Source of the DNA: a virus
Virus record (IMG/VR): IMGVR_UViG_3300037485_000651
Location: 1 to 29,539 of that record
Reading direction: 5' to 3' (one strand)
Length of the DNA: 29,539 bases
The first letter of the stretch is position 1. The number at the start of each line of letters is the position of its first letter. The position numbers and the translations under genes are program-made. Positions 1-29,533 of the stretch are shown piece after piece. The notes under the pieces were generated by a model. That model saw nothing but the letters and a program-made list of their open reading frames with translations, did no database searches and had not been told where the DNA came from.

Positions 1-1646
1 ACACGAAGTCCAGGCGTGTTATCTGTTTGATAAATCATAAGCCCCGCAACGGGAGTGCTTATAGCATCCCTTTGTACCTTTGTCATTCTCGGTAACAATA
101 GCCCCTGCGTTGTGCTTGTAACTGATAATGCTGCTGATGCAGGAGCATAAGCGGTAGAACCTACGTTTAAGTTTGTTCTGATTTGAACCTTACCATCTGT
201 GCCTCTGAACTTCATTAATGAGTCGTAAGTAGAAGTGCCGAAGCCGATGTACATTTCCCTATTCGTATTCCCTGACTTTAAATACCATCGCCATTTTATT
301 CCGTTAGCTACGTCCGTCATTGCATATTGTGCAGTACTTCCATTACCACCTGCAAGCCACGTTTCAACCGTTCCGTTAGCACCTAATTGCCTTGTGTATA
401 AACTTGTGATAGTTCCTGTCGTATTTCCATCAAGGCTAAGCCCTCCCCAGTTTTGTGTAGTAAGCCCTGATGATACTGCTGAAAATCCGTATTTGTTGGC
501 AACGGCAACCGTAGTATTTACAAGGCCTGTATAAGTAGAGCTGCTTCCATAAGAAGTGCCTGGTGATACATTTATTGGAGCATTGAATCCAAATGAATTT
601 AAAGGCTGCGCACCTGCTGATACAGTGTTATTGAATAATGTTCCGTTTAAAGAAAGTATAATTTGCGCTGTATTTGTTGCGCTATCTTGATTTTTCAAAG
701 TAATATCGCCTACACCCTTGAAGCCTGCTAATAACCTATTCAATGAAGATGCGAGTTGTGGCGTATCGCTTGCGCCTCTCATTACATTCATGTTATCTAA
801 AGCCAAGTTGTAGGTTGTGTAACCGTTTAAGTTATTCACGTAAGCAGTTGCAAGCCTTCTTGCTGAACCATTAATAGCTTTAAATTCAGGCATTACGCCA
901 TGAAATTCACTATGCCCCGCACCTCCTATCTGATACCATGTTTCCGTTCTTACTCCCCATGTAGCTTCATTCGCTATTGTAGGCGTGTTAAATCCACCGT
1001 TATAGCCCCATAACAAACCAACTACATTAGGTCTTCCATCTGCATTAACGCCCGGATAGCGTTGATACCCTAATCCGCTAAACATCGAAGGTCTGCCATT
1101 TGGATAGCCTGTAATACCGTACCCTTTCGGATAGATGGTTACAAATTGTTTTCCTTCATTTGCTGAAAGTGTATCAACAAAATTTATTGTCGTGTCGGTG
1201 TTGTTGCCAACGTGCAGTACCTGATCTAAGTTTTGTGAACCACCACCGCCCGAACCAACACTATCGGTAAACTGGTTTCGCCATGTTCCATTTTTCAATG
1301 CACTTACATTTATCCCAATTCTTCGGAGTGAATCAATACCTCCACCACTTGAATTGAAAGTAATGTTTGGATAAGTGCCTGTTAAAGTCATGTTCGTTCC
1401 TGCAATAGGATTGAATTGCGCTGGAGCAGTTCCGCTTACTGCCGTCCATCTTACTCCGTTGCCTATGTACATTGTAGTGCCTTTTACAGCAATACCTGTT
1501 TTGTTTACAGTTGTGTCGGAAGGTATCCTTAAAACAGAATCAGCCCAAGCACGTTTGAACTTATAGCCCCATGCGTTCATGGGTGTCCATTGCGCTGATG
1601 CGGAATAACAAATTAAAATAACGGAAATCGTAAGTAATTTTTTCAT
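1..1646 (-). CDS. Secreted-type tail fibre/structural protein, 3' end off the window
   Basis: The frame is open from an ATG at 1646 to the left edge, giving at least 548 residues with no stop in view. Residues 1-18 form a clear signal peptide (MKKLLTISVILICYSASA, then QW), unusual for a virion protein. The body is rich in Gly, Ser, Thr and Asn, has a Gly-Ser linker near residue 130, and looks like beta-rich fibre sequence. The last visible part reads LLLPRMTKVQRDAI followed by GLMIYQTDNTPG, a pattern I associate with fibres and surface proteins of Bacteroidota and their phages. It is the last visible gene of the tail module; its ATG overlaps the upstream TAA by one base (TAATG). A receptor-binding or side-fibre role is inferred from position and composition; a host-type surface protein is the alternative. 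Confidence 0.75.
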   Translation of the reverse strand, partial: MKKLLTISVILICYSASAQWTPMNAWGYKFKRAWADSVLRIPSDTTVNKTGIAVKGTTMYIGNGVRWTAVSGTAPAQFNPIAGTNMTLTGTYPNITFNSSGGGIDSLRRIGINVSALKNGTWRNQFTDSVGSGGGGSQNLDQVLHVGNNTDTTINFVDTLSANEGKQFVTIYPKGYGITGYPNGRPSMFSGLGYQRYPGVNADGRPNVVGLLWGYNGGFNTPTIANEATWGVRTETWYQIGGAGHSEFHGVMPEFKAINGSARRLATAYVNNLNGYTTYNLALDNMNVMRGASDTPQLASSLNRLLAGFKGVGDITLKNQDSATNTAQIILSLNGTLFNNTVSAGAQPLNSFGFNAPINVSPGTSYGSSSTYTGLVNTTVAVANKYGFSAVSSGLTTQNWGGLSLDGNTTGTITSLYTRQLGANGTVETWLAGGNGSTAQYAMTDVANGIKWRWYLKSGNTNREMYIGFGTSTYDSLMKFRGTDGKVQIRTNLNVGSTAYAPASAALSVTSTTQGLLLPRMTKVQRDAISTPVAGLMIYQTDNTPGLR

Positions 1647-2077
1647 TATGAACCCTCAATTAAAGTTAAAGCCCCTGTTCCCTTAAAACCAACGTTGAAA
1701 GTGGCTATGTTATCAAATGAACTGATTACGCTTGAGTTTTGCACGTAAAAATCAGCCTGCAATGTCATAAAATTATTATTTTGGTCTTCGTAGTTGAACT
1801 GCATCAATAACTTAATCCCATTTAACTGATAATAAATTAAACTGGCAATAGTCAACGGATTATCTGTTTTTTCCAAATTCACAAGCCCTTCAATATCCCC
1901 TTCAAAGCTGTATGAGGTTGGTATAAATGTCTTTGCCGTTCCAGTGCCAATTATGCTTGTTTCTAAAAAGTCTGTGTTAATATTGATAGTACAGGTTCTT
2001 GCACAGCCGTAAGTTATCCACTGAGCCAATGCCTCATTGTAAAAAAATACTACAGCGTCCGTGCCTTTAACTATCAT
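1646..2077 (-). CDS. Tail-tube-like protein (second copy, distal tail)
   Basis: This 143-residue protein has no motif I can name with certainty, but its layout parallels the tail tube protein encoded at 6589-7020, which is also 143 residues. Both have a central S(Y/F)xFEG motif, then a short hydrophobic helix-like stretch with a basic/polar loop, and a C-terminal strand of the form FxxVGxFxGTLxxxG (here ATFNVGFKGTGALTL). The likely explanation is a tail-tube fold reused at the tail tip, as in distal tube or baseplate proteins of long-tailed phages. It is coupled to the tail-tip gene by an ATGA overlap and to the fibre by TAATG. Homology to the tube is inference; a structural tail role is well supported by position. 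Confidence 0.65.
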   Translation of the reverse strand: MIVKGTDAVVFFYNEALAQWITYGCARTCTININTDFLETSIIGTGTAKTFIPTSYSFEGDIEGLVNLEKTDNPLTIASLIYYQLNGIKLLMQFNYEDQNNNFMTLQADFYVQNSSVISSFDNIATFNVGFKGTGALTLIEGS

Positions 2078-4236
2078 ATCTTACCGTATAAATATTTGAA
2101 CTCGTAAACACTTTCTAAGTCAGCATTTATCTCTCCGTCCTCCCACATTTCAACACCACTGAAATCGGCTAAGTCATTTTTATAATTAATGCTTAATTGC
2201 CCAAAAATAACATTTAAAGTAGGATAAATTGATGAATTAAAAATTGTTAATTTATTAACTATTCGACTGCTTTGTAAAATCCCAATTACCGTACCCTCTA
2301 AAATAGTTCTTGTTTTACGCCTCCAAAAAAGTTCTTGAAAAGTGGTAATCTGACCTAACTTTATTTCATCCGGTAGCCATTCCGATGTTCTGTCTTGAAC
2401 TAAACTTGTAAAAGAATCTAAGAACTGCGTTCCGGCAATACTATTCCTCGGTGAATCATCCACATAAATTTCAAAGTCATTTGCATTTCTGCTTATTAAT
2501 GACTGTGTATTTGTATGTGTATGCCCAATTATCTTTGTTTGTGATGCAACAGCCGGAATGTACTCAAATGATAAATCTTTGTACCAAGTTTCATCGGCTA
2601 CGCTTGAAGTTTGTTCGCCAAGATAAATGTATAGTAACCCGGTGTAAGGAAGTTCCCTTGCTTCTATTTCTACGCTATGCCACTCGTTTGTATTGTCGCC
2701 CGATAAGACAGTGAATGTAAATCCGTTTGCTGCTTCCCAGCCGCCATCGTTTTTTAAATACCTTGTTGTCGTTCCGTCAAACAACCTTACAGAAAAAACA
2801 CAATTCACATTGCCGGGTTGACTTACATCCGTTCTGAAACTAAATGACCACTTGAATTTATCACCCACGTTTACTTCAATAGGGGTTGATGTTGCAGCCC
2901 TTGAGCTATCTCCTGTATTCCCTGTAATTACTGCATATCTTTCTATTTCATTGCCTGATGAATCGTAAATAACCCTAATTATTCTTTGTGCATTTGGTGC
3001 GGCAATTCCATTAAACCATAAGGAAAGGTCGTACTCGTAAACGGTATTAGATCCGCTTGTGTAAGTGCTAAGTAATACGCCTAATTGCTGAAAGTTGTAG
3101 TTTTTTAATAAGTTTTCCTGCTGATTATAGTTGAACGTTTGCCTAACAAATTTGTAAGGTCGTAAGATGCCACGCAAAAGCCCAGTAACGATTTCCCCTG
3201 CATCCCAATTAAATACATTGTTTTGCCCGGATACCGTTGATTGATACACGAAATCGTAATTATATTCAAAGTATGTTATTGAATTACCTGCTTGCCGTAA
3301 TTCATCCCACCTAATGAAGTTCCAGTCGCCTTTTGTTTGTAATAATACCATGCGATACCTTTTCAAAATACGCTCCATAACGGTATAGCATGAATCCCAC
3401 TTATCCGCATTTAAAAAATTTTCGCCATCTAAAAAAACATCCTCAAACAATCTTCCAACTACTCCTAACCTAACATCTAATTGAGAATAAACATTTATGC
3501 CAAGTTTTAATCCGGTTGCATTTAAGCAAATGGAAAATATTTCGGCAAGGCTTAATTTGTCCGTCAAATCGAAATACGGAATAGTGTAACCAATAGTAGC
3601 CGAACCGCTACTAAATGTGCCGCCGTTATACTCTACCGTTTCTATTTTAAAAGAGGTTGAGAAATAAGTCAACCCGGCAACCGTGTAAATTCCGTTAGGA
3701 CCACTTAAGCCCGATAGTGTAAACTGCTGCCCAATCTGTAAACCTAAAGGAGTTCCACTCACCGCAAAGGCATATCCTCCAGTTACATAGGATACCGTTC
3801 TTGATACAGTTGTAGGTGTGCCATAGGTGAAGTTAGCCTGATTGATAGGAACGTCTTTTAGCAGCCCCAAATTGTCCGTAAATGATAACCTGATGTAGTG
3901 GGCATAATCAACTTGTATTTCTGTACTATCGTCCTGAACTAAGAAGCCCAAAAAATGAACTCCGTAATCACCTACCAATTCGCCTTTAAACTGATCATCG
4001 TTATTACTGAAAAAAGAACTTAAAGGCAAAGCCCCTTCATTTACTATTTCAACATTCAATACGCATCCCTGAATTGGAGCAAACACATCGTCAGCTTGCC
4101 ATTGCTGAACACAAGGCTGCCCACCTAATAATATCCTTGAATCAGAACCTAAGTAATCTTTTTCGTAGATATTAAATGTGTAGGTGATGCCCTGTAAGCT
4201 ATCAAAGTTTGTTGTGTATTTTAATCCGTAACTCAT
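2074..4236 (-). CDS. Tail tip/hub protein with carbohydrate-binding-like insert
   Basis: This 720-residue protein follows the tape measure gene, where long-tailed phages encode the distal tail and hub proteins. Residues 1-140 resemble the N-terminal hub-like region of Bacteroidota phage tail proteins: GCVLNVEIVNEG, then FKGELV, FLGFLVQDD and LSFTDNLGLLKDV. Residues about 150-215 look like a small beta insert rich in Gly and Ser. Around 260-330 comes a conserved-looking segment with KWDSCYTVMERILKRY and GDWNFIRWDEL. Residues about 365-560 read like a jelly-roll carbohydrate-binding module (LLKNYNF, DKFKWSFSF, WHSVEIEAREL). The C-terminus returns to tail-like sequence (TEWLPDEIKLGQ). It probably forms the tail tip and contacts surface glycans. 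No lysozyme or peptidase motif is visible. Confidence 0.7.
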   Translation of the reverse strand: MSYGLKYTTNFDSLQGITYTFNIYEKDYLGSDSRILLGGQPCVQQWQADDVFAPIQGCVLNVEIVNEGALPLSSFFSNNDDQFKGELVGDYGVHFLGFLVQDDSTEIQVDYAHYIRLSFTDNLGLLKDVPINQANFTYGTPTTVSRTVSYVTGGYAFAVSGTPLGLQIGQQFTLSGLSGPNGIYTVAGLTYFSTSFKIETVEYNGGTFSSGSATIGYTIPYFDLTDKLSLAEIFSICLNATGLKLGINVYSQLDVRLGVVGRLFEDVFLDGENFLNADKWDSCYTVMERILKRYRMVLLQTKGDWNFIRWDELRQAGNSITYFEYNYDFVYQSTVSGQNNVFNWDAGEIVTGLLRGILRPYKFVRQTFNYNQQENLLKNYNFQQLGVLLSTYTSGSNTVYEYDLSLWFNGIAAPNAQRIIRVIYDSSGNEIERYAVITGNTGDSSRAATSTPIEVNVGDKFKWSFSFRTDVSQPGNVNCVFSVRLFDGTTTRYLKNDGGWEAANGFTFTVLSGDNTNEWHSVEIEARELPYTGLLYIYLGEQTSSVADETWYKDLSFEYIPAVASQTKIIGHTHTNTQSLISRNANDFEIYVDDSPRNSIAGTQFLDSFTSLVQDRTSEWLPDEIKLGQITTFQELFWRRKTRTILEGTVIGILQSSRIVNKLTIFNSSIYPTLNVIFGQLSINYKNDLADFSGVEMWEDGEINADLESVYEFKYLYGKI

Positions 4237-5963
4237 GTATTACGTCCTATTGTTTGTGCTGTTCTTCTATTGCTGAAATAAATATCATTGCCTCTTACCA
4301 TGCCGTAAACTTCTACGGATTGAAGTCCACCAAATATATTAGCCGTTTGCGCCGATGGTGTAATTTGTGCGCCACGTGGAACGCTGATAAGTTCAGGTCC
4401 ACGTTCACCAACTAATGACAATCCGCCCGGTGCGAAGCGTGTACCTACGGCAAATGCTTGTTTCTTGCTTGCATTTGAAATCAGTTTGCCAATAGCAATA
4501 AGTGAAATACCTGCCGCAATAGCCAATACAGGATTCTTAATAAGTGCAGCCCTAATGGTTTTAATCAAATTAGCAGTTGTAATGAAATACTTGCCAAGCT
4601 GCTGCAATGCTGCACCTATTTGTTCAAATATTCCTGCAAAGAAATTACCAATAGATCCGCCCGATAAAAGACTACCAAACCCTTCACCAATGCTAATTAA
4701 AACATTTGAAAAAGACTCCCTGATAATTTCCCCTACTGCTAATGAAAAATCAACTATTTGCTGAAGGCTATTTCTTGCCGGGTTTAATAAATTATTAAAA
4801 AGTGTTTCGGGGTTTTCAATTTGAATATCAAGCTTTGCCGGAATGGTAACTACTTTCGATGCAGACGGGTTTTGCTTATTGCCGTAAAACAAATCCAAAA
4901 AGTCTTGTGTGATAACCCGGTTTAACTCCAATACGCTTTTCTTCAATTCATCTACCTGCTCCTTAGTTCTTTTGATAACCGAATTACCATCGTTTGCAGG
5001 GTTCAATTTGATAGCCTTTGAGAACTCTCCCAACTGTTTGGCTAAATCTTCAATCTCTTTATTTAAAGTTGCAATTTTACCTGCCCCAGTCCTTTCAGAA
5101 AAGGTTGTTAAAGCCTCCAATTGGTTAGCGAGTACACTATTGCCCCCTGAACGCAATTCGTTAGCGGTGCGGCTGTTAATAGCCTTAGAAAGGGCTGCTA
5201 AGTTCTTTATCTGCTGTGTCTGACCTACACCCTGAATCTCCAAAAGTTTAGTTAACTTTTCTTCTAACTTTAACTGTATGATTTTTACAGCAACAACATT
5301 CTTTATATTCTCAATGTAGGATTGATAAACCCTGTCCAATCCGCTAACGGCATCACCTTCCAATTTAAGCCCCTTAAATATTTCAGGGTTAATTTTGTTA
5401 AGTTCTTTTAGTGCAACAAGTTTGCGCTCCCTTGTTTCGGTTTCGGATTTCAATACCGTTATCAGGGTAAGCACCTGAGTGGCTTCTTTACCCTGCCCTT
5501 CAAAAATACCCTTAACCGCTTCGCTGTACTTCTTTGCCGATTCGGCTGCCTCATCAGCTCTTTTTGAAGAAGCAAATAACCGATCGCCAAAAACTATTAA
5601 CGCTGATGAAACTAAAGAAACAGCCAATCCCAAACCACCTGCCCCAACAAAGGATGAACCCAACGCTTTGAGGGCTGTTTTTGTTGAGCCAGTTTCAGCC
5701 TTTAATCTTTGAAAACTTTCAAGTAATGGATTAATGTTGTTGGCAATACCAAGAAAGCCAAACGGCGCATCCTGCACCACCCTGCCCAAGTTGGTAAGGG
5801 ATTGTGTAGCCTGAGCAGTACCCTTCCCTAATGTCTGAAGTTTACTATCTAACTTTTGCGCCTCCACCGCCGTTGTTGCTAATGACTTCGTAACAACAGC
5901 CGCACCCTTAGCAACATTATCAAACCCAACGGCACTAACAACGATTTCAATATTTTGCGCCAT
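4233..5963 (-). CDS. Tail tape measure protein
   Basis: At 576 residues this is a short tape measure protein, which sets tail length and occupies the tube lumen. The N-terminal 100 residues are Ala/Thr/Gln-rich and helical (SLTNLGRVVQDAPFGF is typical of Bacteroidota tape measures). Hydrophobic segments lie near residues 100-125 and 470-500 (NPVLAIAAGISLIAIGKLI), and long coiled-coil-like helices fill 140-340. The C-terminal motif GTRFAPGGLSLVGERGPEL is a hallmark of tape measure proteins. The gene directly follows the tail chaperone pair, overlapping the frameshifted product's stop by one base (TAATG), and overlaps the tail-tip gene by ATGA. By the usual scaling of about 0.15 nm per residue the tail would be roughly 85 nm long; this is an estimate. 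Confidence 0.92.
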   Translation of the reverse strand: MAQNIEIVVSAVGFDNVAKGAAVVTKSLATTAVEAQKLDSKLQTLGKGTAQATQSLTNLGRVVQDAPFGFLGIANNINPLLESFQRLKAETGSTKTALKALGSSFVGAGGLGLAVSLVSSALIVFGDRLFASSKRADEAAESAKKYSEAVKGIFEGQGKEATQVLTLITVLKSETETRERKLVALKELNKINPEIFKGLKLEGDAVSGLDRVYQSYIENIKNVVAVKIIQLKLEEKLTKLLEIQGVGQTQQIKNLAALSKAINSRTANELRSGGNSVLANQLEALTTFSERTGAGKIATLNKEIEDLAKQLGEFSKAIKLNPANDGNSVIKRTKEQVDELKKSVLELNRVITQDFLDLFYGNKQNPSASKVVTIPAKLDIQIENPETLFNNLLNPARNSLQQIVDFSLAVGEIIRESFSNVLISIGEGFGSLLSGGSIGNFFAGIFEQIGAALQQLGKYFITTANLIKTIRAALIKNPVLAIAAGISLIAIGKLISNASKKQAFAVGTRFAPGGLSLVGERGPELISVPRGAQITPSAQTANIFGGLQSVEVYGMVRGNDIYFSNRRTAQTIGRNT

Positions 5964-6585
5964 TACACTTTAATTTTATGTCGTTTTAAAATAGCATCGT
6001 AACGCTCCTTAGTCATTGCCGGGACTTCCCTCCTTTCATTAACCGGCCATATCTTTTCAATACTTCCCACCGCCTTACTACCTGCCATTGAACTTGCAAT
6101 AATATAGGTGGAGTACCGTGTTACCATCATCCGTTCTTTCTCCCGTTCATTGTAGCCCTCACAAGCCGCATAAAACTCAACAGGTAACGATGTATAGTAA
6201 TCGTAAGCACTCCACCCAAGTTTACCCAAAGCGAACTTTAGGTTTTCGTAGGCTATTTCTTTTGCGCTTTTTTTTTCACATCTTCCTCCTGCACTACACT
6301 TATCAAGTCTTTCCAAAGGCTTGTTTCCTGAAGCGTATTAACAACAAGTTCATTAACCTTTGCCTTGTCTTTCATCTCGTCCACCCAATCACAAACCTGC
6401 TCAAAGTTGTAATCCGGTTCTTCCCTCTTTACATAGGAGTTGCCACGTAAGCCCCCGTAATACAGGGCATACATAAAAGCCGATGTACTGCCGCCGTCAT
6501 TGTGGGTGCTGATAATTTCGATGGCAAGTTGGTTGAATTTTAAGCCACGTTGCTTACCACCAATTTCAATTTGTATGTAACTCAT
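5963..6585 (-). CDS. Tail assembly chaperone G-T, made by -1 frameshift
   Basis: The zero frame runs from ATG 6585 to the A run at 6276-6268 (106 codons). A -1 slip rereads base 6268 and continues as SAKEIAYENLKFALGKLGW to a TAA at 5965-5963, giving about 207 residues. The T part holds LPVEFYAACEGYNERE and TRYSTYIIAS, the usual pattern of the second half of tail chaperones (a D/E-rich 'FxAAxEGYxER' segment and a tryptophan/tyrosine helix). No independent start is convincing for the T frame: the ATG at 6316 lies inside G and would add an unlikely N-terminus. The layout (tube, G, G-T, tape measure) matches that of lambda-like and many other siphoviruses. Confidence 0.87.
6253..6585 (-). CDS. 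Tail assembly chaperone G (unshifted product)
   Basis: This 110-residue protein lies between the tail tube and the tape measure, the standard place for the tail assembly chaperone. It begins MSYIQIEIGGKQRGLKFNQL, the ubiquitin-like beta start seen in chaperones of this kind, followed by a helical region that includes YYGGLRGN and FEQVCDWVDEM. It ends in a lysine-rich tail (VKKKAQKK) encoded across a run of nine A residues, where a -1 shift produces the longer G-T protein. Chaperones of this class coat the tape measure and recruit tube subunits; they are not expected in the finished virion. Confidence 0.88.
   Translation of the reverse strand: MSYIQIEIGGKQRGLKFNQLAIEIISTHNDGGSTSAFMYALYYGGLRGNSYVKREEPDYNFEQVCDWVDEMKDKAKVNELVVNTLQETSLWKDLISVVQEEDVKKKAQKK
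6268..6276 (-). promoter_or_regulatory. A9 slippery site for -1 translational frameshift
   Basis: Nine consecutive A residues on the coding strand fill three in-frame AAA lysine codons of the chaperone gene, followed by GCG. A one-base backward slip moves ribosomes into the T frame, which is open for 102 codons, while the zero frame stops 15 bases after the A run. Both the position in the gene order and the frame direction (-1) agree with the conserved tail chaperone frameshift. Confidence 0.85.
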
Positions 6586-6588
6586 AAT

Positions 6589-7020
6589 TTAGCTTTCTTC
6601 AGTTAATACCGGTGTTCCATAAGGCTTCAATGTGCCTGAAAACGTACCAACAGAATCGAAGCCGTAAGTACTTGATAAAGCCGAAAAGTAACCCGTACCT
6701 GTTTCGATTTCATCGCCTGCAACCGGTGTTTCAGGAGCAATTTTGAATCCAACGGTTGTTTTGTTACGTAACAATGTCCGTAGTGATGTTCCGCTTATCT
6801 TTCCTGTATTTGGGTCTTGCAAATGCTGACCTTCAAAGGTGTAAGATAGTGTTAATTGACCTGGTGAACTGTCTGGTCCACAAGCCGAAGCCGCATCAAT
6901 TTCAGCAATGGAATCCTCCTTGCCTACTGATAAAAGACAAACAACGGTGTCATAATCCGTGCCACCCAAAGGGTCAATAAATAACAACATCGTGCCGCCT
7001 TGTACTTTATGTTCTGCCAT
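6589..7020 (-). CDS. Major tail (tube) protein
   Basis: This 143-residue protein is encoded immediately upstream of the tail chaperones, the usual position of the tail tube subunit. It has the features of this fold: an N-terminal strand region (KVQGGTMLLFIDP), the central SYTFEGQHL segment, a helix RTLLRNKTTVGFKI, and a C-terminal strand pair (GTFSGTLKPYGTPVL). It would stack in rings around the tape measure. A paralogue-like protein is encoded at 1646-2077 beyond the tail tip gene. Only three bases separate it from the chaperone start. Confidence 0.85.
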   Translation of the reverse strand: MAEHKVQGGTMLLFIDPLGGTDYDTVVCLLSVGKEDSIAEIDAASACGPDSSPGQLTLSYTFEGQHLQDPNTGKISGTSLRTLLRNKTTVGFKIAPETPVAGDEIETGTGYFSALSSTYGFDSVGTFSGTLKPYGTPVLTEES

Positions 7021-18623: not shown

Positions 18624-19700
18624 TTACACATCTTCCATCTGTTGTATTGCTTTAAAAATCTGTAATGCCACCTGTGGCACAATAGCGTTACCTGCTGCCT
18701 TTATGGATTCGTTTCGCCATTTAGGAAAGGTAATGCCGTCCAGTCGGGTGGAAAGCCCATCATCTCCAAAACGAATAGGGGGTTGAGTTGGGAAGTTTTG
18801 CCAGTAATTTCCCGACTCATTTTCACCAATGAATCCTGATTCTCCAGTCCTGTTACTTTGTCCCCGCAATCCGATGCCATTGGTGTTGGCAACATCTTGC
18901 TTGCTATTACATCCTCCAAATTCCCTTTCTGTCTGTCGTTGCTGCAATTCCCCCCTGCTGCTCTTGCCCTCACGGTTGGCAGCATCCCCGCCCATCTGCT
19001 CAATGTTACGCTGTGCATACTCCCCTCCTTCACCTGTGTTGATTTCATGTTGGCTGTAGCTCCCGTGCTGTCCATTGCTGTTGGGGTGGGGATCATCTTG
19101 TAAATCCTCTCCAATAAAAATCCGTTCTTTGCTTCCTGTGCTAAGTTGCCCGATGTTCCCGAAATCCCCTTGCTTGTCATGTTCTCCATTTCCGCATCCA
19201 TTGCGCCCGGTGTCTTTAAAAGCAATAAACCAAACCCTATCCCTTCTGTGGGGAGCGTTGACGGCACAAGCTGGAAGTACATACGCCCAGACTTCGTACC
19301 CCGCAGCTTCCAAGTCAGTTTGCACCTCATCGAATACCATCCCTTCATTCCAATTAATGAGGCCGCCAACATTTTCGCCCACAACCCAACGTGGTTGAAC
19401 TTCTCTAATTGCTCTAAGCATTTCCGGCCACAAGTGGCGTTCATCTTCTTTGCCTTTTCGTTTTCCTGCAAGGCTGTAGGGCTGGCAGGGGAATCCTCCT
19501 GTAAGAATATCAATTCTGTTTGCATATTTTGTAAAATCTGTTTTAGTAATATCTGAAAATCCTTCCGCTTCCGGAAAGTGATGCCGTAAAACTTTTTGTC
19601 CAAATTCATTCCATTCGCACCAGGCTAACGTTTCCCAACCCATCCACCTGGCAGCAAGTGAAAAACCTCCGATGCCTTCAAACAGTCCTAAGTGGTTCAT
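18624..19700 (-). CDS. DNA (cytosine-5) methyltransferase
   Basis: This 358-residue enzyme has all core motifs of C5 cytosine methyltransferases: motif I GLFEGIGGFSLA (5-16), motif IV GGFPCQPYSLAG with the catalytic Cys71, motif VI GENV (106-109), motif VIII HRRDRVWFIA (149-158), and motif X AAGNAIVPQVALQIFKAI near the end. It probably methylates phage DNA against host restriction. Between 160 and 310 the sequence is low-complexity and rich in Gly, Asn and Gln, where a target-recognition domain should be, and this same DNA carries a long ORF in the +1 frame (18701-19609). It overlaps the next upstream gene by 23 bases. Confidence 0.92.
   Translation of the reverse strand: MNHLGLFEGIGGFSLAARWMGWETLAWCEWNEFGQKVLRHHFPEAEGFSDITKTDFTKYANRIDILTGGFPCQPYSLAGKRKGKEDERHLWPEMLRAIREVQPRWVVGENVGGLINWNEGMVFDEVQTDLEAAGYEVWAYVLPACAVNAPHRRDRVWFIAFKDTGRNGCGNGEHDKQGDFGNIGQLSTGSKERIFIGEDLQDDPHPNSNGQHGSYSQHEINTGEGGEYAQRNIEQMGGDAANREGKSSRGELQQRQTEREFGGCNSKQDVANTNGIGLRGQSNRTGESGFIGENESGNYWQNFPTQPPIRFGDDGLSTRLDGITFPKWRNESIKAAGNAIVPQVALQIFKAIQQMEDV
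18701..19609 (-). CDS. Overlapping ORF inside the methyltransferase gene (+1 frame)
   Basis: A 302-codon ORF starts with an ATG at 19609 and lies wholly inside the methyltransferase gene in the +1 frame. It does not read like a chance frame. Residues 40-100 (ASPTALQENEKAKKM, CGRKCLEQLEKF, MRCKLTWKLRG, RMYFQLVPSTLPTEG) and the repeated LPTPxAxD motifs in the second half (IPTPTAMD, MLPTPMASD), then QLNPLFVLEMMGFPPDW, look like segments I recall from single-frame phage methylase-associated proteins. The second half lies where the methyltransferase frame is low-complexity. It could be a separate protein or an extension made by frameshifting. The first half could instead look familiar only because the overlapping frame is conserved. 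Confidence 0.5.
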   Translation of the reverse strand: MNLDKKFYGITFRKRKDFQILLKQILQNMQTELIFLQEDSPASPTALQENEKAKKMNATCGRKCLEQLEKFNHVGLWAKMLAASLIGMKGWYSMRCKLTWKLRGTKSGRMYFQLVPSTLPTEGIGFGLLLLKTPGAMDAEMENMTSKGISGTSGNLAQEAKNGFLLERIYKMIPTPTAMDSTGATANMKSTQVKEGSMHSVTLSRWAGMLPTVRARAAGGNCSNDRQKGNLEDVIASKMLPTPMASDCGDKVTGLENQDSLVKMSREITGKTSQLNPLFVLEMMGFPPDWTALPFLNGETNP

Positions 19701-21392: not shown

Positions 21393-21413
21393 GTTGCGTA
21401 AAGCAAAGTGTTA
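21393..21413 (-). repeat. Cassette-end repeat, leftward copy
   Basis: On the leftward strand this 21-base element has TAAC at one end and GCTTTACGCAAC at the other. Copies at 28745-28765 and 29339-29359 on the plus strand match it at about 19 of 21 bases. It begins 11 bases after the stop of the 21424-21726 gene, as the others sit at or just after stop codons. Confidence 0.7.
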
Positions 21414-21781
21414 GCAGAAATGGCTACTGACCGTTTCCAATTGACAATTCAGCCAATAAAGCATCAGCATATTTGACTGCTATTTGCGACACATACTTTG
21501 TGTAATGTTCATCAAACGAATATTTTGTTTCTTTCGGCAATCCAATCGCTTCAAGAACATAGGTAGATGAAATTTGGGTTTCAGAAGAGTTGGCTAAAAA
21601 ACCTTTCATTGCTGAAATTGCAAAGTGTTCTCTTTTTGTTAGTCCAAAATATACATCGTGTTGAATTGTGCCATCTTGATTTTGGTGTGGCATTGGGTTA
21701 ATTGGTTGTTCTGAATTTTTTAGCATTTTATTACGTTTTTAAATTAATACCCTTGTAAATTAACCGCCACTTCTGCTAACA
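21409..21781. repeat. 16-bp inverted repeats flanking one small gene
   Basis: The left arm at 21409-21424 (TGTTAGCAGAAATGGC) and right arm at 21766-21781 (GCCACTTCTGCTAACA) are inverted repeats with 15 of 16 bases matching. Between them lies exactly one gene, 21424-21726. The left arm reaches the first base of its stop codon. This resembles the boundaries of a mobile gene cassette. Confidence 0.65.
21424..21726 (-). CDS. Small conserved-type phage protein in a repeat-flanked cassette
   Basis: The 100-residue protein has DVYFGLTKREHFAISAMKGF followed by LAN, then a C-terminal helix IAVKYADALLAELSIGN. The 'LTKREYFA..AMQGLLAN...YADALIAEL' pattern is common among small proteins of many phages; I do not know its function. 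The gene is bordered by 16-bp inverted repeats and sits downstream of a large imperfect palindrome, unlike the tightly overlapped genes around it, which suggests it moved in as a unit. Confidence 0.75.
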   Translation of the reverse strand: MLKNSEQPINPMPHQNQDGTIQHDVYFGLTKREHFAISAMKGFLANSSETQISSTYVLEAIGLPKETKYSFDEHYTKYVSQIAVKYADALLAELSIGNGQ

Positions 21782-21907
21782 AGGGTTTGTAGCAATAGGG
21801 GCAGAAGGAACTAAATTGAGCCTTAGTACTTCTATTAGGCTGTGGTGCTATATTCAACAGTAGTGCCATAAATCCCCTACTGCTACAAGCCCCAAAACGT
21901 TATCGGC
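21771..21907 (-). repeat. Imperfect palindrome, cassette-boundary type
   Basis: Outer motifs CTGCTAACAAGGGTTTG (21773-21789) and CAAGCCCCAAAACGTTATCG (21887-21906) bracket inner arms TTGTAGCAATAGGGG (21787-21801) and CCCCTACTGCTACAA (21874-21888), which pair at 14 of 15 positions. The spacer of 72 bases has weaker pairing. The right end supplies the CGA TAA (Arg, stop) that ends the 21900-22343 gene. The layout recalls attC sites and the long imperfect palindromes between accessory genes in Bacteroidota chromosomes; I cannot match the exact attC consensus. Confidence 0.55.
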
Positions 21908-22343
21908 TATTTAGGGCAAACCACTCTAAGGTAACAGTTACCTCATACGGCTGACCAAAAGCACCACTTAAACGCAAAACCTTGCTGTATTCCAAATTAC
22001 TATCTCTTATGTCATTAAAAGAAACTTGTTCATATTGACCATAATATTGATCAATCAATTTATTAGCATTTGCAACTGTATCTGCAACACCTATAACCGA
22101 CTGTTCTTTATCTTCATGGTCTTTTTCGTGGATGACAATTAAACTGCCCATAACTTGCGTGCGGCAGGACAGAACGTGTTGAACAAACTGCAACATATCC
22201 CACCAGTCAATTTCACTCTTATCTTCATTGGTTGTTAAATCCATCAAAGGATATTTGGCTTCAAAATATTGCCTTGCGACTTCTTCGATTTGTTCAATAG
22301 AAGCCGCAGCCGATAACACTGCTTTTGCGTCTTGGAATTGCAT
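21900..22343 (-). CDS. Uncharacterised acidic protein, cassette-type
   Basis: This 147-residue protein is acidic and soluble: MQFQDAKAVLSAAASIEQIE at the start, DKSEIDWWDMLQFVQHVLSC in the middle, and FGQPYEVTVTLEWFALNSR at the end. I do not recognise a family. Its last codons, AGC CGA TAA, are part of the palindromic element that follows; the gene at 29111-29341 also ends with GC CGA TAA inside a related repeat. That shared ending supports a repeat-bounded cassette origin. It starts four bases after the stop of the small membrane protein at 22347-22517. Confidence 0.65.
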   Translation of the reverse strand: MQFQDAKAVLSAAASIEQIEEVARQYFEAKYPLMDLTTNEDKSEIDWWDMLQFVQHVLSCRTQVMGSLIVIHEKDHEDKEQSVIGVADTVANANKLIDQYYGQYEQVSFNDIRDSNLEYSKVLRLSGAFGQPYEVTVTLEWFALNSR

Positions 22344-25281: not shown

Positions 25282-25646
25282 GGCGGTAGTTTTAGATGGG
25301 TGAGGTAATTAGGTTGCCTGGTTGCATTTTCAATGTCATCGGAAACGTAAACATTGTATGCCATACCATACCCGTTCGTAAATGGAGTGGTTATAACTAC
25401 AAGATACAATTCCTTTTCCGTGTCCTCTACTTCAAGCATGAGGTTGTTCGACGATTCATAAAAATTAGTATAAGATCCGTTAATCTGCCATGTTTTTTTT
25501 ATGCCATTAACCGCACCACCTAACGGAAATTGGTCATCGGTTTCAAAGTTAGTTAAATGCTTCACTTCCCTGCCATCGGCAGTTACTGGTTTGCCGCCTG
25601 CCTTCCATGCTTCGATGCTGAAGGGGATTGTTTTTGTTTTTTTCAT
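25269..25646 (-). CDS. Small phage protein, paralogue of 26179-26622 product
   Basis: This 125-residue protein starts MKKTKTIPFSIEAWKAGGKP, with VTADGREVKHLTNF, then FPLGGAVNGIKKTW and a later hydrophobic LYLVVITTPF. The protein encoded at 26179-26622 has the same plan (W.SGDYLKVVTGL, LLEFTEF, YPLIGSANGYRKSF, DLFLIVAD), so the two are probably paralogues. The 'W..G....T..G..V..L..F......PL.G...G' layout occurs in small early proteins of many phages; role unknown. It is coupled to the upstream gene by ATGA. Confidence 0.7.
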   Translation of the reverse strand: MKKTKTIPFSIEAWKAGGKPVTADGREVKHLTNFETDDQFPLGGAVNGIKKTWQINGSYTNFYESSNNLMLEVEDTEKELYLVVITTPFTNGYGMAYNVYVSDDIENATRQPNYLTHLKLPPCNS

Positions 25647-26182
25647 TGTATCATTGTTTTAAGGTGATTGATTTGTTCAGAACTTGCCGCATAAAATGCC
25701 GCAGAACTTGCCGCAGAATATGCCGCATCACTTGCCGCATCACTTGCCGCATAAAATACCGCAGAACTTGCCGCAGAAAATGCCGCAGAACTTGCCGCAG
25801 AATATGCCGCAGAATATGCCGCAGAAAGTTCTTCATCCGTAGAACTTGCCGCAGAATATGCCGCAGAATATGCCGCAGAAAGTTCTTCATCCGTTGCCTC
25901 GCCATTAGCATATCTTTCAGCTACATTACAAGCCTCTACACTTCTTGCATCAGGGTTTTTAATTAACTTCAAAGCCTCCCTTGCACACCACACGGCAAAT
26001 AATCTCAAAGTTTTTACATCAATAAATTCCTCCCTAAGAACCACCCATAGCCTATCGTGAGGAGGGCAATCTTCTACATTTAGAATGTCAAGTACCGTAC
26101 CTGTCCAGTCTTCGGGAATGTATTTTATCGGGTCGTAACAAAGCGTTAACGCCTTGATGTCGTTGTATGTTATTTGTTTCAT
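25643..26182 (-). CDS. Protein with alanine-rich YSAA repeats
   Basis: The product from ATG 26182 has 179 residues. A longer frame begins at 26236, but the ATG at 26182 overlaps the upstream TGA (ATGA), so it is the better start. Residues 1-105 form an alpha-helical domain (DIKALTLCYDPIKYIPEDW, DRLWVVLREEFIDVKTLRLF followed by AVWCAREAL, RSVEACNVAERYANGEATDE). The C-terminal 70 residues are an Ala/Ser/Tyr repeat of SAAY and SAAS units. Similar helical domain plus Ala-rich tails occur in phage accessory proteins I have seen; an immunity- or superinfection-type role has been suggested for look-alikes but is not shown here. Confidence 0.75.
   Translation of the reverse strand: MKQITYNDIKALTLCYDPIKYIPEDWTGTVLDILNVEDCPPHDRLWVVLREEFIDVKTLRLFAVWCAREALKLIKNPDARSVEACNVAERYANGEATDEELSAAYSAAYSAASSTDEELSAAYSAAYSAASSAAFSAASSAVFYAASDAASDAAYSAASSAAFYAASSEQINHLKTMIQ
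25684..25894 (-). repeat. Coding 12-nt repeats with a 54-nt tandem duplication
   Basis: The DNA cycles with a 12-base period (GCCGCAGAACTT-type units). Within it, 25787-25840 and 25841-25894 are perfect, adjacent 54-base copies, encoding TDEELSAAYSAAYSAASS twice. The perfect identity implies recent duplication by slippage or unequal exchange. Repeat units are in frame, so copy changes alter only the tail length. Confidence 0.85.
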
Positions 26183-26622
26183 ACTGTATATTTTTCTTTG
26201 GTGATAAAATCTAAATCCTGAATTACCTTGTGCCATGACTTGACAGCAAATATCTGTGATGCTTTCAAGTCGGGGAATGTGTAAACAAACGCATCACGAC
26301 TTTGCAACTTTTCCGCACGCACCTTAATAAAATTGCCTGTTGCTTCCCATTGGTTATTATCAACCGGGATGTTGTAATCAAATTCAATTGGTTCGTTATC
26401 GGCAACGATTAGGAAAAGGTCTTCGGCATTTTCTACTTCATCTGTGAGGTAATGTCCTTTTTTAGTGAAGGATTTTCGGTATCCGTTTGCAGAGCCGATA
26501 AGGGGATAATTTATAAGTGTTTTAAACTCTGTAAACTCCAATAATTCTGTATCAAGACCTGTTACTACTTTAAGGTAATCACCGCTTTTCCAGCGGTCGT
26601 AATCGAATTTTACTTTTTTCAT
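26179..26622 (-). CDS. Small phage protein, paralogue of 25269-25646 product
   Basis: This 147-residue protein starts MKKVKFDYDRWKSGDYLKVV, with ELLEFTEFKTLINYPLIGSA then NGYRKSFTKKGHY, DLFLIVAD and a C-terminal extension (KSWHKVIQDLDFITKEKYTV) absent from the shorter paralogue. Only the first 100 residues are shared. It overlaps the repeat protein gene by four bases (ATGA). I do not know its function; two copies around the repeat gene suggest duplication of an early-gene unit. Confidence 0.7.
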   Translation of the reverse strand: MKKVKFDYDRWKSGDYLKVVTGLDTELLEFTEFKTLINYPLIGSANGYRKSFTKKGHYLTDEVENAEDLFLIVADNEPIEFDYNIPVDNNQWEATGNFIKVRAEKLQSRDAFVYTFPDLKASQIFAVKSWHKVIQDLDFITKEKYTV

Positions 26623-27815: not shown

Positions 27816-27823
27816 TACTTTTC

Positions 27824-27847
27824 CGCAACTAACAATTTAAAATAAAA
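27824..27847 (+). repeat. Short copy of the intergenic repeat
   Basis: CGCAACTAACAATTTAAA followed by ATAAA matches the core of the longer repeats at 28738-28800 and 29332-29395. It ends about five bases before the start of the 27853-28314 gene, so in each case the repeat leads into a start codon. Confidence 0.7.
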
Positions 27848-27852
27848 TACAA

Positions 27853-28314
27853 ATGAAAGTTAAAGTAGATAATTACAGAGGATGGGATATTTCCTTTGAT
27901 ACTGAAAAAGAAAACTTCTATGCAGAAAGTAATGAATATGATAGAGAAGAAACGAAAAAATCATTTGCTGCGGCAAAGAAGTTTATAGATGAATTTATAA
28001 AGGAAAATTTGAACTTTAAACCTGTGTGGGTTGAAGAAACGGCTAACGCATGCCGAAATGCTATTAAGGTAAAACTTATTGGCATTAGAAAAGATGGTCG
28101 TTTTGTTTACGAAGATAAAAAAGGCGAAAAGCAACAAATGTCTGATTGGAGTGAGAAAGATTACATTTTATGCAATCCCGACAACGATGTTTTTTACAGA
28201 CAAATAGCCGATTGTAATGCAAGGGTAAAATTAATTGATGAAGAAAGAAAAGAAATAGAAGCAAAAATTATAAGGGTTGGGCTGGCAGAACTTAAAAGAA
28301 AATTTACAGTATAA
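27853..28314 (+). CDS. Uncharacterised protein with a C-terminal coiled coil
   Basis: This 153-residue protein has an N-terminal strand-helix section (VDNYRGWDISFDTEKENFYA then FAAAKKFIDEFIKEN), a central beta part (VWVEETANACRNAIKVKLIG, RFVYEDKKGEKQQM) and a C-terminal coiled coil (CNARVKLIDEERKEIEAKII). I do not recognise it. It follows a conserved intergenic repeat and is the largest gene of the rightward arm. Confidence 0.65.
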   Translation: MKVKVDNYRGWDISFDTEKENFYAESNEYDREETKKSFAAAKKFIDEFIKENLNFKPVWVEETANACRNAIKVKLIGIRKDGRFVYEDKKGEKQQMSDWSEKDYILCNPDNDVFYRQIADCNARVKLIDEERKEIEAKIIRVGLAELKRKFTV

Positions 28315-28420
28315 CTATGGTAGTGCTAACCGCTAACCCGCCACTATCCCGCACCCTTAATAAACTTAAACCTGCACAATAAACTGAACGGCTTTATTAA
28401 GCAATTTAAACAATTAAAAA

Positions 28421-28735
28421 ATGAAACAAAAAACATTAATTAAACAGGCAATTGAACTTTTAGAGCAACATAGGAAAGCATTGCAGAAAATGGATTTGTT
28501 AGGCGTTCTTTTAGAAAACGAACTTACTCACAAGTCAAATGAAATAAACACCATTCAATTGTTATTAGCCAAACTAATACCAACAGAAGAAAAGCAAATG
28601 ATTGATTTTCATATTGAAGTTATGAAGATTGGGCTAATTCAAGAAGGTGGTAAAAAATGGTCAGAAGACTATTTACCTAGGATTAAAGAAACTGCTGAAA
28701 AGTATTATGGTCAAACTTTTGGTGATGTCGCTTAG
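28421..28735 (+). CDS. Uncharacterised helical protein
   Basis: The 104-residue product (MKQKTLIKQAIELLEQHRKA onward, then LLGVLLENELTHKSNEINTI) is mostly helical and charged and ends EKYYGQTFGDVA. It stops three bases before a 63-base intergenic repeat. The 106-base gap in front of it contains GCTAACC repeats and a weak GTAGTG/CACTAT palindrome but no ORF. Function unknown. Confidence 0.6.
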   Translation: MKQKTLIKQAIELLEQHRKALQKMDLLGVLLENELTHKSNEINTIQLLLAKLIPTEEKQMIDFHIEVMKIGLIQEGGKKWSEDYLPRIKETAEKYYGQTFGDVA

Positions 28736-28737
28736 GG

Positions 28738-28800
28738 TTGCCAATAACACGTCGCTTTACGCAACTAACAATTTAAAATAAACACATGAACGAAAAAGAA
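28738..28800 (+). repeat. Intergenic repeat, copy A
   Basis: This 63-base element differs from copy B (29332-29395) at only about four positions. It includes the TAAC/GCTTTACGCAAC cassette-end element (28745-28765), the AACTAACAATTTAAA leader, and the start ATGAACGAAAAAGAA of the following gene. It therefore spans one gene's end and the next gene's start. Confidence 0.8.
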
Positions 28801-29031
28801 AAAGCAAAAGAATTGGTTGAAAAATACCTAAACACAATTATTCATTTCCCATACATTGATACGGAAGATGGTAACTGTATAGGAACTGGTTATATGACGC
28901 ATAATTCTGCTGTCAGATGTGCTATAAATGCAGTTGATGAGATAATAGAATGCACTAAAAATGGTTTAGGCACAACTAAATTCTCAAAAGAATATTGGCA
29001 AGAAGTCAAGTCGGAGTTGCAGTCTTTTTAA
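28786..29031 (+). CDS. Small phage protein, MNEKE-start
   Basis: The 81-residue product (MNEKEKAKELVEKYLNTIIH then CIGTGYMTHNSAVRCAINAV) has a charged N-terminal helix, a middle segment with Cys and His, and a helix EYWQEVKSELQSF. The pattern 'EKAKELVEKY....A..CA...VDEII' is common in small uncharacterised early proteins of Bacteroidota phages. Its first five codons lie inside the intergenic repeat and are shared with the gene at 29381. Confidence 0.7.
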   Translation: MNEKEKAKELVEKYLNTIIHFPYIDTEDGNCIGTGYMTHNSAVRCAINAVDEIIECTKNGLGTTKFSKEYWQEVKSELQSF

Positions 29032-29110
29032 AGTTGCGTATAACTTTTTTGGGCTTTGTGTCCGTTGGCGATTTAAACCACAGATGTTAAATTAAAAAAC
29101 AAATATTGAT

Positions 29111-29341
29111 ATGAGCAAAAAAGTTGAATTGAAAGACGAAACCGCCAATGGCACAAAACCCGTGTTATCGGCAGGTTTTTATATCACGGATTTTTGTAAA
29201 TGCAAGTGTGGGGAGGAAGTAAGCCCATCACAAGCAGACACAGTTAATCAGATATTGTATGATGATAACAGAGATAAGGTTGTCGGTTTTGAGTGTTGGA
29301 AATGTGGTGAGTGGATTGCATTTCCTAAAACTTGCCGATAA
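29111..29341 (+). CDS. Zinc-ribbon protein with repeat-supplied stop
   Basis: The 76-residue protein has two metal-binding pairs: CKCKCGE (residues 29-35) and CWKCGEW (61-67), consistent with a small zinc ribbon. It ends ...KTCR with the codons TGC CGA TAA; the TGC CGA TAA belongs to copy B of the intergenic repeat, so the repeat supplies its last residues and stop. The gene at 21900-22343 ends the same way (AGC CGA TAA) in a related repeat. Confidence 0.75.
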   Translation: MSKKVELKDETANGTKPVLSAGFYITDFCKCKCGEEVSPSQADTVNQILYDDNRDKVVGFECWKCGEWIAFPKTCR

Positions 29342-29395
29342 CCCGTCGCTTTACGCAACTAACAATTTAAAAATAATCACATGAACGAAAAAGAA
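29332..29395 (+). repeat. Intergenic repeat, copy B
   Basis: A 64-base near-copy of 28738-28800, with about four differences, one of them a single-base insertion. It starts in the last codons of the zinc-ribbon gene and ends within the first codons of the next gene. Confidence 0.8.
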
Positions 29396-29533
29396 CTTGC
29401 TGCCGCCTACCAACCATTGTTCGACCTGATGGCAAATGAGCATGACTTGATTTTAATTCAGCAGGAAATGGATGAGATAATTATAGCGGCTCTTAAAGTA
29501 GTTGATAATTTTAAAACCTTAAAAAATAAATAA
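29381..29533 (+). CDS. Small protein, MNEKE-start
   Basis: A 50-residue ORF (MNEKELAAAYQPLFDLMANE, then HDLILIQQEMDEIIIAALKV) is helical and acidic. Its first five residues equal those of the product at 28786 because both lie in the repeat. A new ATG begins at 29535 and runs off the window. Function unknown. Confidence 0.65.
   Translation: MNEKELAAAYQPLFDLMANEHDLILIQQEMDEIIIAALKVVDNFKTLKNK

Follow-up and report, generated by a model that had tools for sequence, protein, structure and literature searches.

The common joints between the small genes of this phage are very probably the ends of integron-like cassettes of one gene each, which a tyrosine recombinase of the host type would exchange at the core of a short box. 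The evidence, which is drawn from sequence comparison, includes two complete hairpin sites in the window (the whole stretch of 29,539 nucleotides that was analysed, IMG/VR virus record IMGVR_UViG_3300037485_000651), the pairing of the boxes at the two ends of a cassette, long arrays of such sites, the precise loss and relocation of units in cultured phages, joins at G^TT and a chromosomal platform in Bacteroidota.

Repeat copies and the genes they join

Families of terminase, portal, capsid and protease proteins were recognised in the window, as is typical of a phage, and no tyrosine recombinase was found in it. The repeat reported by the earlier note is real: copies A (28737-28800, plus strand) and B (29331-29395, plus strand) are separated by three substitutions and a one-base insertion, show 95% identity over 41 bases, and reach from the end of the upstream gene to the first five codons (MNEKE) of the genes at 28786-29031 and 29381-29533. 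The former belongs to the unit of leader and g6 (28766-29031, plus strand; 81 aa, phrog_21441), while the latter is g8 (50 aa, plus strand), which has its leader and first five codons in common with g6. The 26-mer CGCTTTACGCAACTAACAATTTAAAA occurs exactly twice in the window and in none of 100 dinucleotide-preserving shuffles. The shorter copy described previously is also present, as a decayed module with leader (27820-27847, plus strand; two mismatches in an 18-mer) preceding the gene at 27853-28314, and so is the leftward match, TAAC..GCTTTACGCAAC at 21393-21413 of the minus strand, which is part of copy C (21393-21420) and directly follows the stop of the gene at 21424-21726. The statement that the repeat includes the stop codon of the preceding gene holds for copy B, where TAA lies inside the ..GCCGATAAC box, but not for copy A, in which TAG stands just before the repeat.

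A search for the exact repeat in IMG/VR and GTDB returned no genomes and just two viral contigs, in which 19 bases matched and the context was unrelated. A looser pattern gave mostly coding coincidences, the relevant matches being confined to the L006/L077/L079 records and L080. The nucleotide search of the window against cultured phages gave no matches, the Rfam search no matching family and the search with the g5 protein no relative. A promoter reading of the repeat was dropped, since the spacing would not suit the Bacteroidota consensus.

Complete hairpin sites and cassettes of the window

Two complete attC-like sites were identified, both outside the spans reported in the earlier note. Site S2 (29033-29175, plus strand) consists of the R'' box GTTGCGTATAAC (29033-29044), which follows g6 and forms the left end of cassette I, of arms at 29051-29070 and 29143-29161, and of the R' box GTTATCGGCAGG (29164-29175). 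Cassette I (29044-29341, plus strand; 298 bp between the AA^C points) comprises the hairpin, a start codon, g7 and a stop. Site S1 (21768-21911, minus strand) has the R'' box AATAGCCGATAAC at 21899-21911, which contains the stop of the gene at 21900-22343, and the R' box GTTAGCAGAAGTG at 21768-21780. Together with the gene at 21424-21726 (100 aa, phrog_2201), it makes up cassette II (21411-21899, minus strand; 489 bp). These are the only two complete cassettes in the window.

Both sites were called by our own scanner rather than by the published attC covariance model, and S2 emerged from an unfiltered scan of the window, as a filter requiring AACG would miss it. The hairpin scores were 31 for S2 and 30 for S1, with a maximum of 29 in 40 Markov shuffles of the window. 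The predicted folds pair the expected arms; the energy z-scores were -2.4 for S1, -1.8 for the stem and loop of S2 alone and an unremarkable -0.14 for the whole of S2, owing to its long A-rich loop. In S1, S2 and their relatives, a hairpin of paired arms (L''/L') is flanked by R''/R' boxes with a GTT core, as in attC sites, although the R' consensus GTTRRRY is not reproduced: the boxes of the window read GTTATCG and GTTAGCA, so that the core is kept while the remainder deviates.

In both cassettes the starting R' box is the reverse complement of the closing R'' box at 11/12 positions, which is the signature predicted for cassettes that leave as circles. The closing R'' boxes belong to joints B and C, so it is with these repeats that the cassettes starting at S2 and S1 end.

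Structure of the joints

Joints A, B and C each begin with a variable box, the last bases of which are ATAAC or CTAAC (GTTGCCAATAAC, CTTGCCGATAAC and TTTCTGCTAAC, respectively); a nearly constant 17-base module, AC-NNN-GCTTTACGCAAC, comes next, and then a leader. In joint A the R''-like box (28737-28748, plus strand) closes the g5 unit and is followed by the module ACGTCGCTTTACGCAAC (28749-28765). The R'' box of joint B (29331-29342, plus strand) closes cassette I, being complementary to the R' box at 29164-29175, and runs into the module CCGTCGCTTTACGCAAC (29343-29359). Joint C, located on the minus strand, is formed by the R'' box at 21410-21420, which closes cassette II (its 11/12 match to the R' box being counted over 12 nt), and the module ACTTTGCTTTACGCAAC (21393-21409). 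None of the three joints contains a hairpin, and neither g5 nor g6 has an intact upstream site.

The module may best be regarded as the half-site at the end of an array. We favour this reading because the module is constant while box and leader vary, the same module being found after differing R'' boxes and before differing leaders in A, B, C, L006 and L080, and because the arrays of the cultured lillamy phages close in a similar way, their last R'' box running into constant sequence that has no hairpin and in which a cassette has been inserted. It is nevertheless quite possible that the module is the remnant of a site from which the hairpin was deleted, with R'' fused to a decayed R': the sequence ACGCTG-CTTTACGCAAC resembles a right arm plus R' (CGCTG-TTATACGCAAC), and the R'' box of g6 is complementary to the module in 10/12 positions. 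Against such a deletion stand the single module after five different R'' boxes and before different leaders, and the lillamy array end. On the array-end reading, A and B would mark the ends of two short runs, and their likeness beyond the module, into the MNEKE codons, could reflect copying of an array end together with its start signal.

A second common joint, TCAGGTTGAACCTGAC..CTGTACTATGATTCC, is found in the same phage lineage (L006, L080, L209, L210); it replaces the GCTTTACGCAAC joint before an MDEKTLK gene, and both joints reach the leader at CAACC. In addition, the stretch at 28315-28420 of the window, between the genes at 27853-28314 and 28421-28735, reads GGTAGTG..CACTATCC and holds several TAAC boxes, possibly representing the decayed site of the g5 unit.

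Relatives and exchange of units

The earlier note had seen in the repeats a set of interchangeable small-gene units with common joints, and the relatives bear this out. The g6 unit has different neighbours in the window, L049 and L050, the similarity to L049 being confined to 28766-29049, a pattern that, on sequence grounds, points to exchange in the joint A/B region. L006 and L080 have the joint and the downstream genes in common but not the upstream gene. Gene order therefore differs among relatives, and a fixed leader with one order everywhere is not what is found.

Phage relatives, found through a conserved gene and through g6, carry GGTTGCNNATAACGTTTTGCGG.. after their genes, and a right half that matches it, ..CCGCTGTTA. 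The pattern TTGCNNATAACGTTTTGCGGC was located at 45 loci of GTDB genomes, nearly all from Bacteroidota (about two would be expected by chance, as an estimate), and on 31 IMG/VR contigs, part of the viral contigs being fragments. Counts of sites in this analysis were obtained with a scanner of our own that started from a single motif, and they favour that motif. Full elements measure roughly 60-200 bases, commonly about 125, and their arms pair within the element. The phrog_2 terminase was present in 6/12 of the cassette-bearing viral records examined; PF03354 proved a poor choice as a terminase probe, and it was phrog_2 that gave the terminases.

Several other features were observed along the way. 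In the 66.9-kb viral contig L175, about 11 small-gene cassettes with their sites stand in a row at positions 1-6627, and their genes include methyltransferase-like and zinc-finger-like ones. In the window, a DNA methyltransferase gene (18624-19700; 358 aa) matches methyltransferase families, and a second open frame of 302 aa (18701-19609) lies on the same strand in another frame. A run of 12-base repeats at 25678-25913, inside the gene at 25643-26236 (minus strand), encodes SAAYSAASS-like protein repeats and may vary in copy number.

One site in front of many genes

The gene g7 (29111-29341, plus strand; 76 aa) has its ATG and first 18 codons inside S2 and its stop inside the next R'' box. The same site is found in L215, L217, L218, L219, L220 and L175, at least 88% identical and on average 90.9% over 110 bases. 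When the 21 pairs were compared, the mean identity was 90.9% to the left of GTG^TTA and 60%, about background, to the right of it; the genes on the right are unrelated among the seven viral contigs, and the join is at G^TT. L214, in turn, carries the g7 body with a different left side.

Since the shared site includes the ATG and 18 codons, the proteins have an N-terminal peptide in common, which the loop and the right arm encode; it reads MSKKVELKNETANGTKPV in L215 and differs by one residue in the window. The stop can come from the R'' box (..TGC CGA TAA C in the g7 of the window); with the start held by the site and the stop by the R'' box, both signals are built into the cassette ends. The putative site-encoded peptide, predicted as ELKDETANGTKPV, is probably made, judging from the open frame and the A-rich leader.

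Pairing of boxes and cassette order

When a unit is excised as a circle its end box meets its start box, so that in an array the partner of an R'' box is the R' box of the preceding site. Adjacent boxes do indeed match at no fewer than 5/6 variable bases in 45/54 chromosomal pairs (permutation mean 5.1, maximum 14 in 5000) and in 14/25 viral pairs (mean 4.4, maximum 13), and the two boxes within a single site only in 12/109 and 7/57 cases, respectively. Hairpin arms behave in the opposite manner, pairing within a site (mean 28.8) and not across sites (13.7). Among cultured Flavobacterium phages, adjacent boxes are paired in 14/14 cases in lillamy9-1, 15/15 in sniff9-1, 9/10 in mumin6-1 and 7/9 in tooticki6-1. 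As in attC arrays, it is the two end boxes of a cassette that pair with each other, not those within one integrated site.

The orientation of genes relative to the motif is opposite in phages and chromosomes. With mixed or undetermined cases set aside, flanking genes were sense at 29 viral loci and antisense at none, while in genomes the figures were 1 and 30. The lillamy breakpoints account for this, because a phage hairpin stands ahead of the gene and the cut falls at the box in front of that hairpin. Chromosomal cassettes have the gene first and the hairpin after it, which is the classical order of a mobile unit of gene and then attC site; in phages the site comes first and the gene follows. 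In both settings the box that is cut would be the one beside the longer spacer.

Movement of cassettes between cultured phages

Recent movement can be followed in the deposited assemblies of cultured isolates, from which all differences given here were read. Lillamy9-1 and lillamy9-3 are of equal length, and if a 439-bp stretch bounded by AA^C points is cut out of lillamy9-1 and put back at another AA^C, the result agrees with lillamy9-3 over 9600 bases except for 36 scattered mismatches. The relocated unit consists of a hairpin, a gene and a box that pairs with its own R'. Each of the two arrangements occurs in more than one isolate, as judged by the position of a flanking site, and the 439-bp unit is also cleanly missing from sniff9-2. 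Mumin6-3 lacks another unit of 506 bp, snork6-2 one of 342 bp and lillamy9-7 one of 476 bp, and in all four losses the breakpoints lie in TAAC. Five comparisons between cultured phages placed the breakpoints at AA^C, where the shared sequence could be as short as 5 bp. Hence excision and insertion at the core box, a property of attC sites, are seen in the comparison of isolates, and one 439-bp cassette appears, quite visibly, to have been cut and pasted between the near-identical lillamy9-1 and lillamy9-3. No tyrosine recombinase was found in four cultured phages.

It is unlikely that the phage arrays are passive leftovers of a chance capture of ordinary chromosomal integron cassettes. Published phage attC clusters have been explained by off-target or illegitimate capture (PMC9892861), and the lack of a recombinase in the phages would agree with it; yet the polarity of sites to genes is opposite to that of chromosomes, the arrays extend to 11-16 sites with 7/9 to 15/15 of adjacent boxes paired, and isolates differ by recent moves.

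The swapping of small genes by homologous recombination between 63-base common joints, which the earlier note had proposed, must be considered improbable. The extent of the A/B identity would suit such an exchange, as would the approximately 12 bases of identity at the ends of the loss that separates snork6-1 from snork6-2, but the lillamy junctions share only ATAAC, and identity of that length is too short for ordinary homologous recombination. Moreover, breakpoints recur at one core position (AA^C; at the g7 site, G^TT) with different flanks and as few as 5 bp in common, and the pairing of each cassette's ends is left unexplained. Because of the fixed core breakpoints, the little shared sequence and the paired ends, the main mechanism would be site-specific, with homologous recombination between A and B possible in addition, deleting g6 and cassette I. 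That the repeat is a duplicated leader and translation start, with hairpins serving as terminators of no role in mobility, is hardly credible, for even though the repeat ends in an A-rich leader with a start codon and hairpins are intergenic, gene orders and neighbours differ in relatives, start codons and coding sequence lie inside the hairpin, and the precise relocation of a unit largely refutes it.

A chromosomal platform in Bacteroidota

Of 14 chromosomal regions, eight have a tyrosine recombinase (about 350-390 residues) with an array behind it that runs in the same direction (L186, L187, L189, L190, L192, L195, L196 and L197; e.g. Algoriphagus lacus, Cecembia rubra, Schleiferia thermophila and Pedobacter). 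In five of these loci (L186, L187, L189, L192, L196) the box of the first cassette, matched at 9-10/10, lies 89-101 nt after the recombinase stop. The junction behind the recombinase is therein attI-like by sequence, with the first cassette apparently joined at G^TT; no such junction was found in the window.

The Bacteroidota recombinase is closest to XerA-type models, and its best NCBIfam match is NF040815, with scores that reach or come close to the cut-off (191-231 bits, cut-off 220). Integron-integrase models match on both sides of the IntI-specific domain and skip that region, the domain itself being absent: where VchIntIA (2a3v) has 58 residues, the Bacteroidota recombinase has 16, about 42 being missing. 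An integrase with the IntI-specific domain, by which a complete integron is recognised, was accordingly not found among the Bacteroidota recombinases. For Bacteroidetes, the IntegronFinder 2.0 report lists no more than In0 elements and a single complete integron, that of Salinibacter (PMC9024848). No such platform was encountered in the literature searched, a partial coverage that leaves its novelty unproven. A recombinase of this kind at the head of an integron-like platform brings into question the need for the IntI-specific domain.

According to the mechanism proposed here, a phage cassette would be composed of a hairpin site, a gene and an R''-like box (..ATAAC), and a tyrosine recombinase, probably from the Bacteroidota host, would swap strands at AA^C (G^TT on the other strand). 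Supply by the host is probable because neither the window nor the cultured phages encode such an enzyme, and it is the host recombinase that would act on the phage sites. Given strand exchange at the box core, a cassette could leave as a circle and enter another box. Several cassette-bearing viral contigs (L166, L176, L182, L185) encode a tyrosine recombinase of about 280 aa, near the cassettes in L166 and L185. This enzyme may recombine cassettes on behalf of the phage, or it may be an ordinary integrase for lysogeny.

In broader terms, there is a reasonable likelihood that Bacteroidota possess an integron lineage of their own, with attI, hairpin cassettes and a recombinase devoid of the IntI-specific domain, which current tools have largely missed, and that phages keep a separate site-first pool, in which the site brings the start codon and N-terminus and the end box the stop, shuffling small genes and methyltransferases by means of the host recombinase.

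The mosaic genomes of phages are commonly put down to homologous or illegitimate recombination. Here, the swapping of genes in phages without a recombinase is accounted for by a site-specific cassette system, the products of which are visible in isolates already published. DNA methyltransferases are among the genes that the cassettes carry, and the authors who described the isolates suspected methyltransferase differences behind host-dependent plating efficiency, integrons and cassettes not being mentioned in their report (PMC7077304). Owing to the methyltransferase cassettes and this suspected link, host range can be tested jointly with the set of cassettes present.

Comparison with known systems

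Clusters of attC sites without an integrase (CALINs) have been described in phages, 17 among 10,705 genomes (Qi et al. 2023, PMC9892861), and one site of the Bacteroidota phage P12002L was recombined by IntI1 (PMC9892861); the main text of that study makes no mention of Flavobacterium phages. The present system resembles the phage CALINs of the same study (PMC9892861) in that units of a single gene alternate with hairpin sites in virulent phages that have no integrase, and the layout of the P12002L intergenic regions is the same as here. It differs from published phage CALINs in its arrays of 11-16 sites, in relocation between isolates, in the site-first order and in the start codons encoded by sites.

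With sedentary chromosomal integrons (IntI, attI, attC) the Bacteroidota platform shares a recombinase, an adjoining attI-like junction and an array pointing away from it, as well as the G^TT core, hairpin sites and cassette-specific pairing of boxes, whereas the recombinase described here has no IntI-specific domain and the R' box is not GTTRRRY. The catalytic domain is like that of XerA/XerC/XerD-type recombinases (NF040815, 'site-specific tyrosine recombinase/integron integrase'), from which the enzyme is distinguished by about 80-100 extra N-terminal residues and by its place at the head of a cassette array. Since IntI is absent, the box consensus differs and the order of the cassette is reversed, the system of the window is not filed as a canonical integron, although it works like one. 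Phage attC clusters are already on record; the site-first cassettes, their mobility and the non-IntI platform appear to be new.
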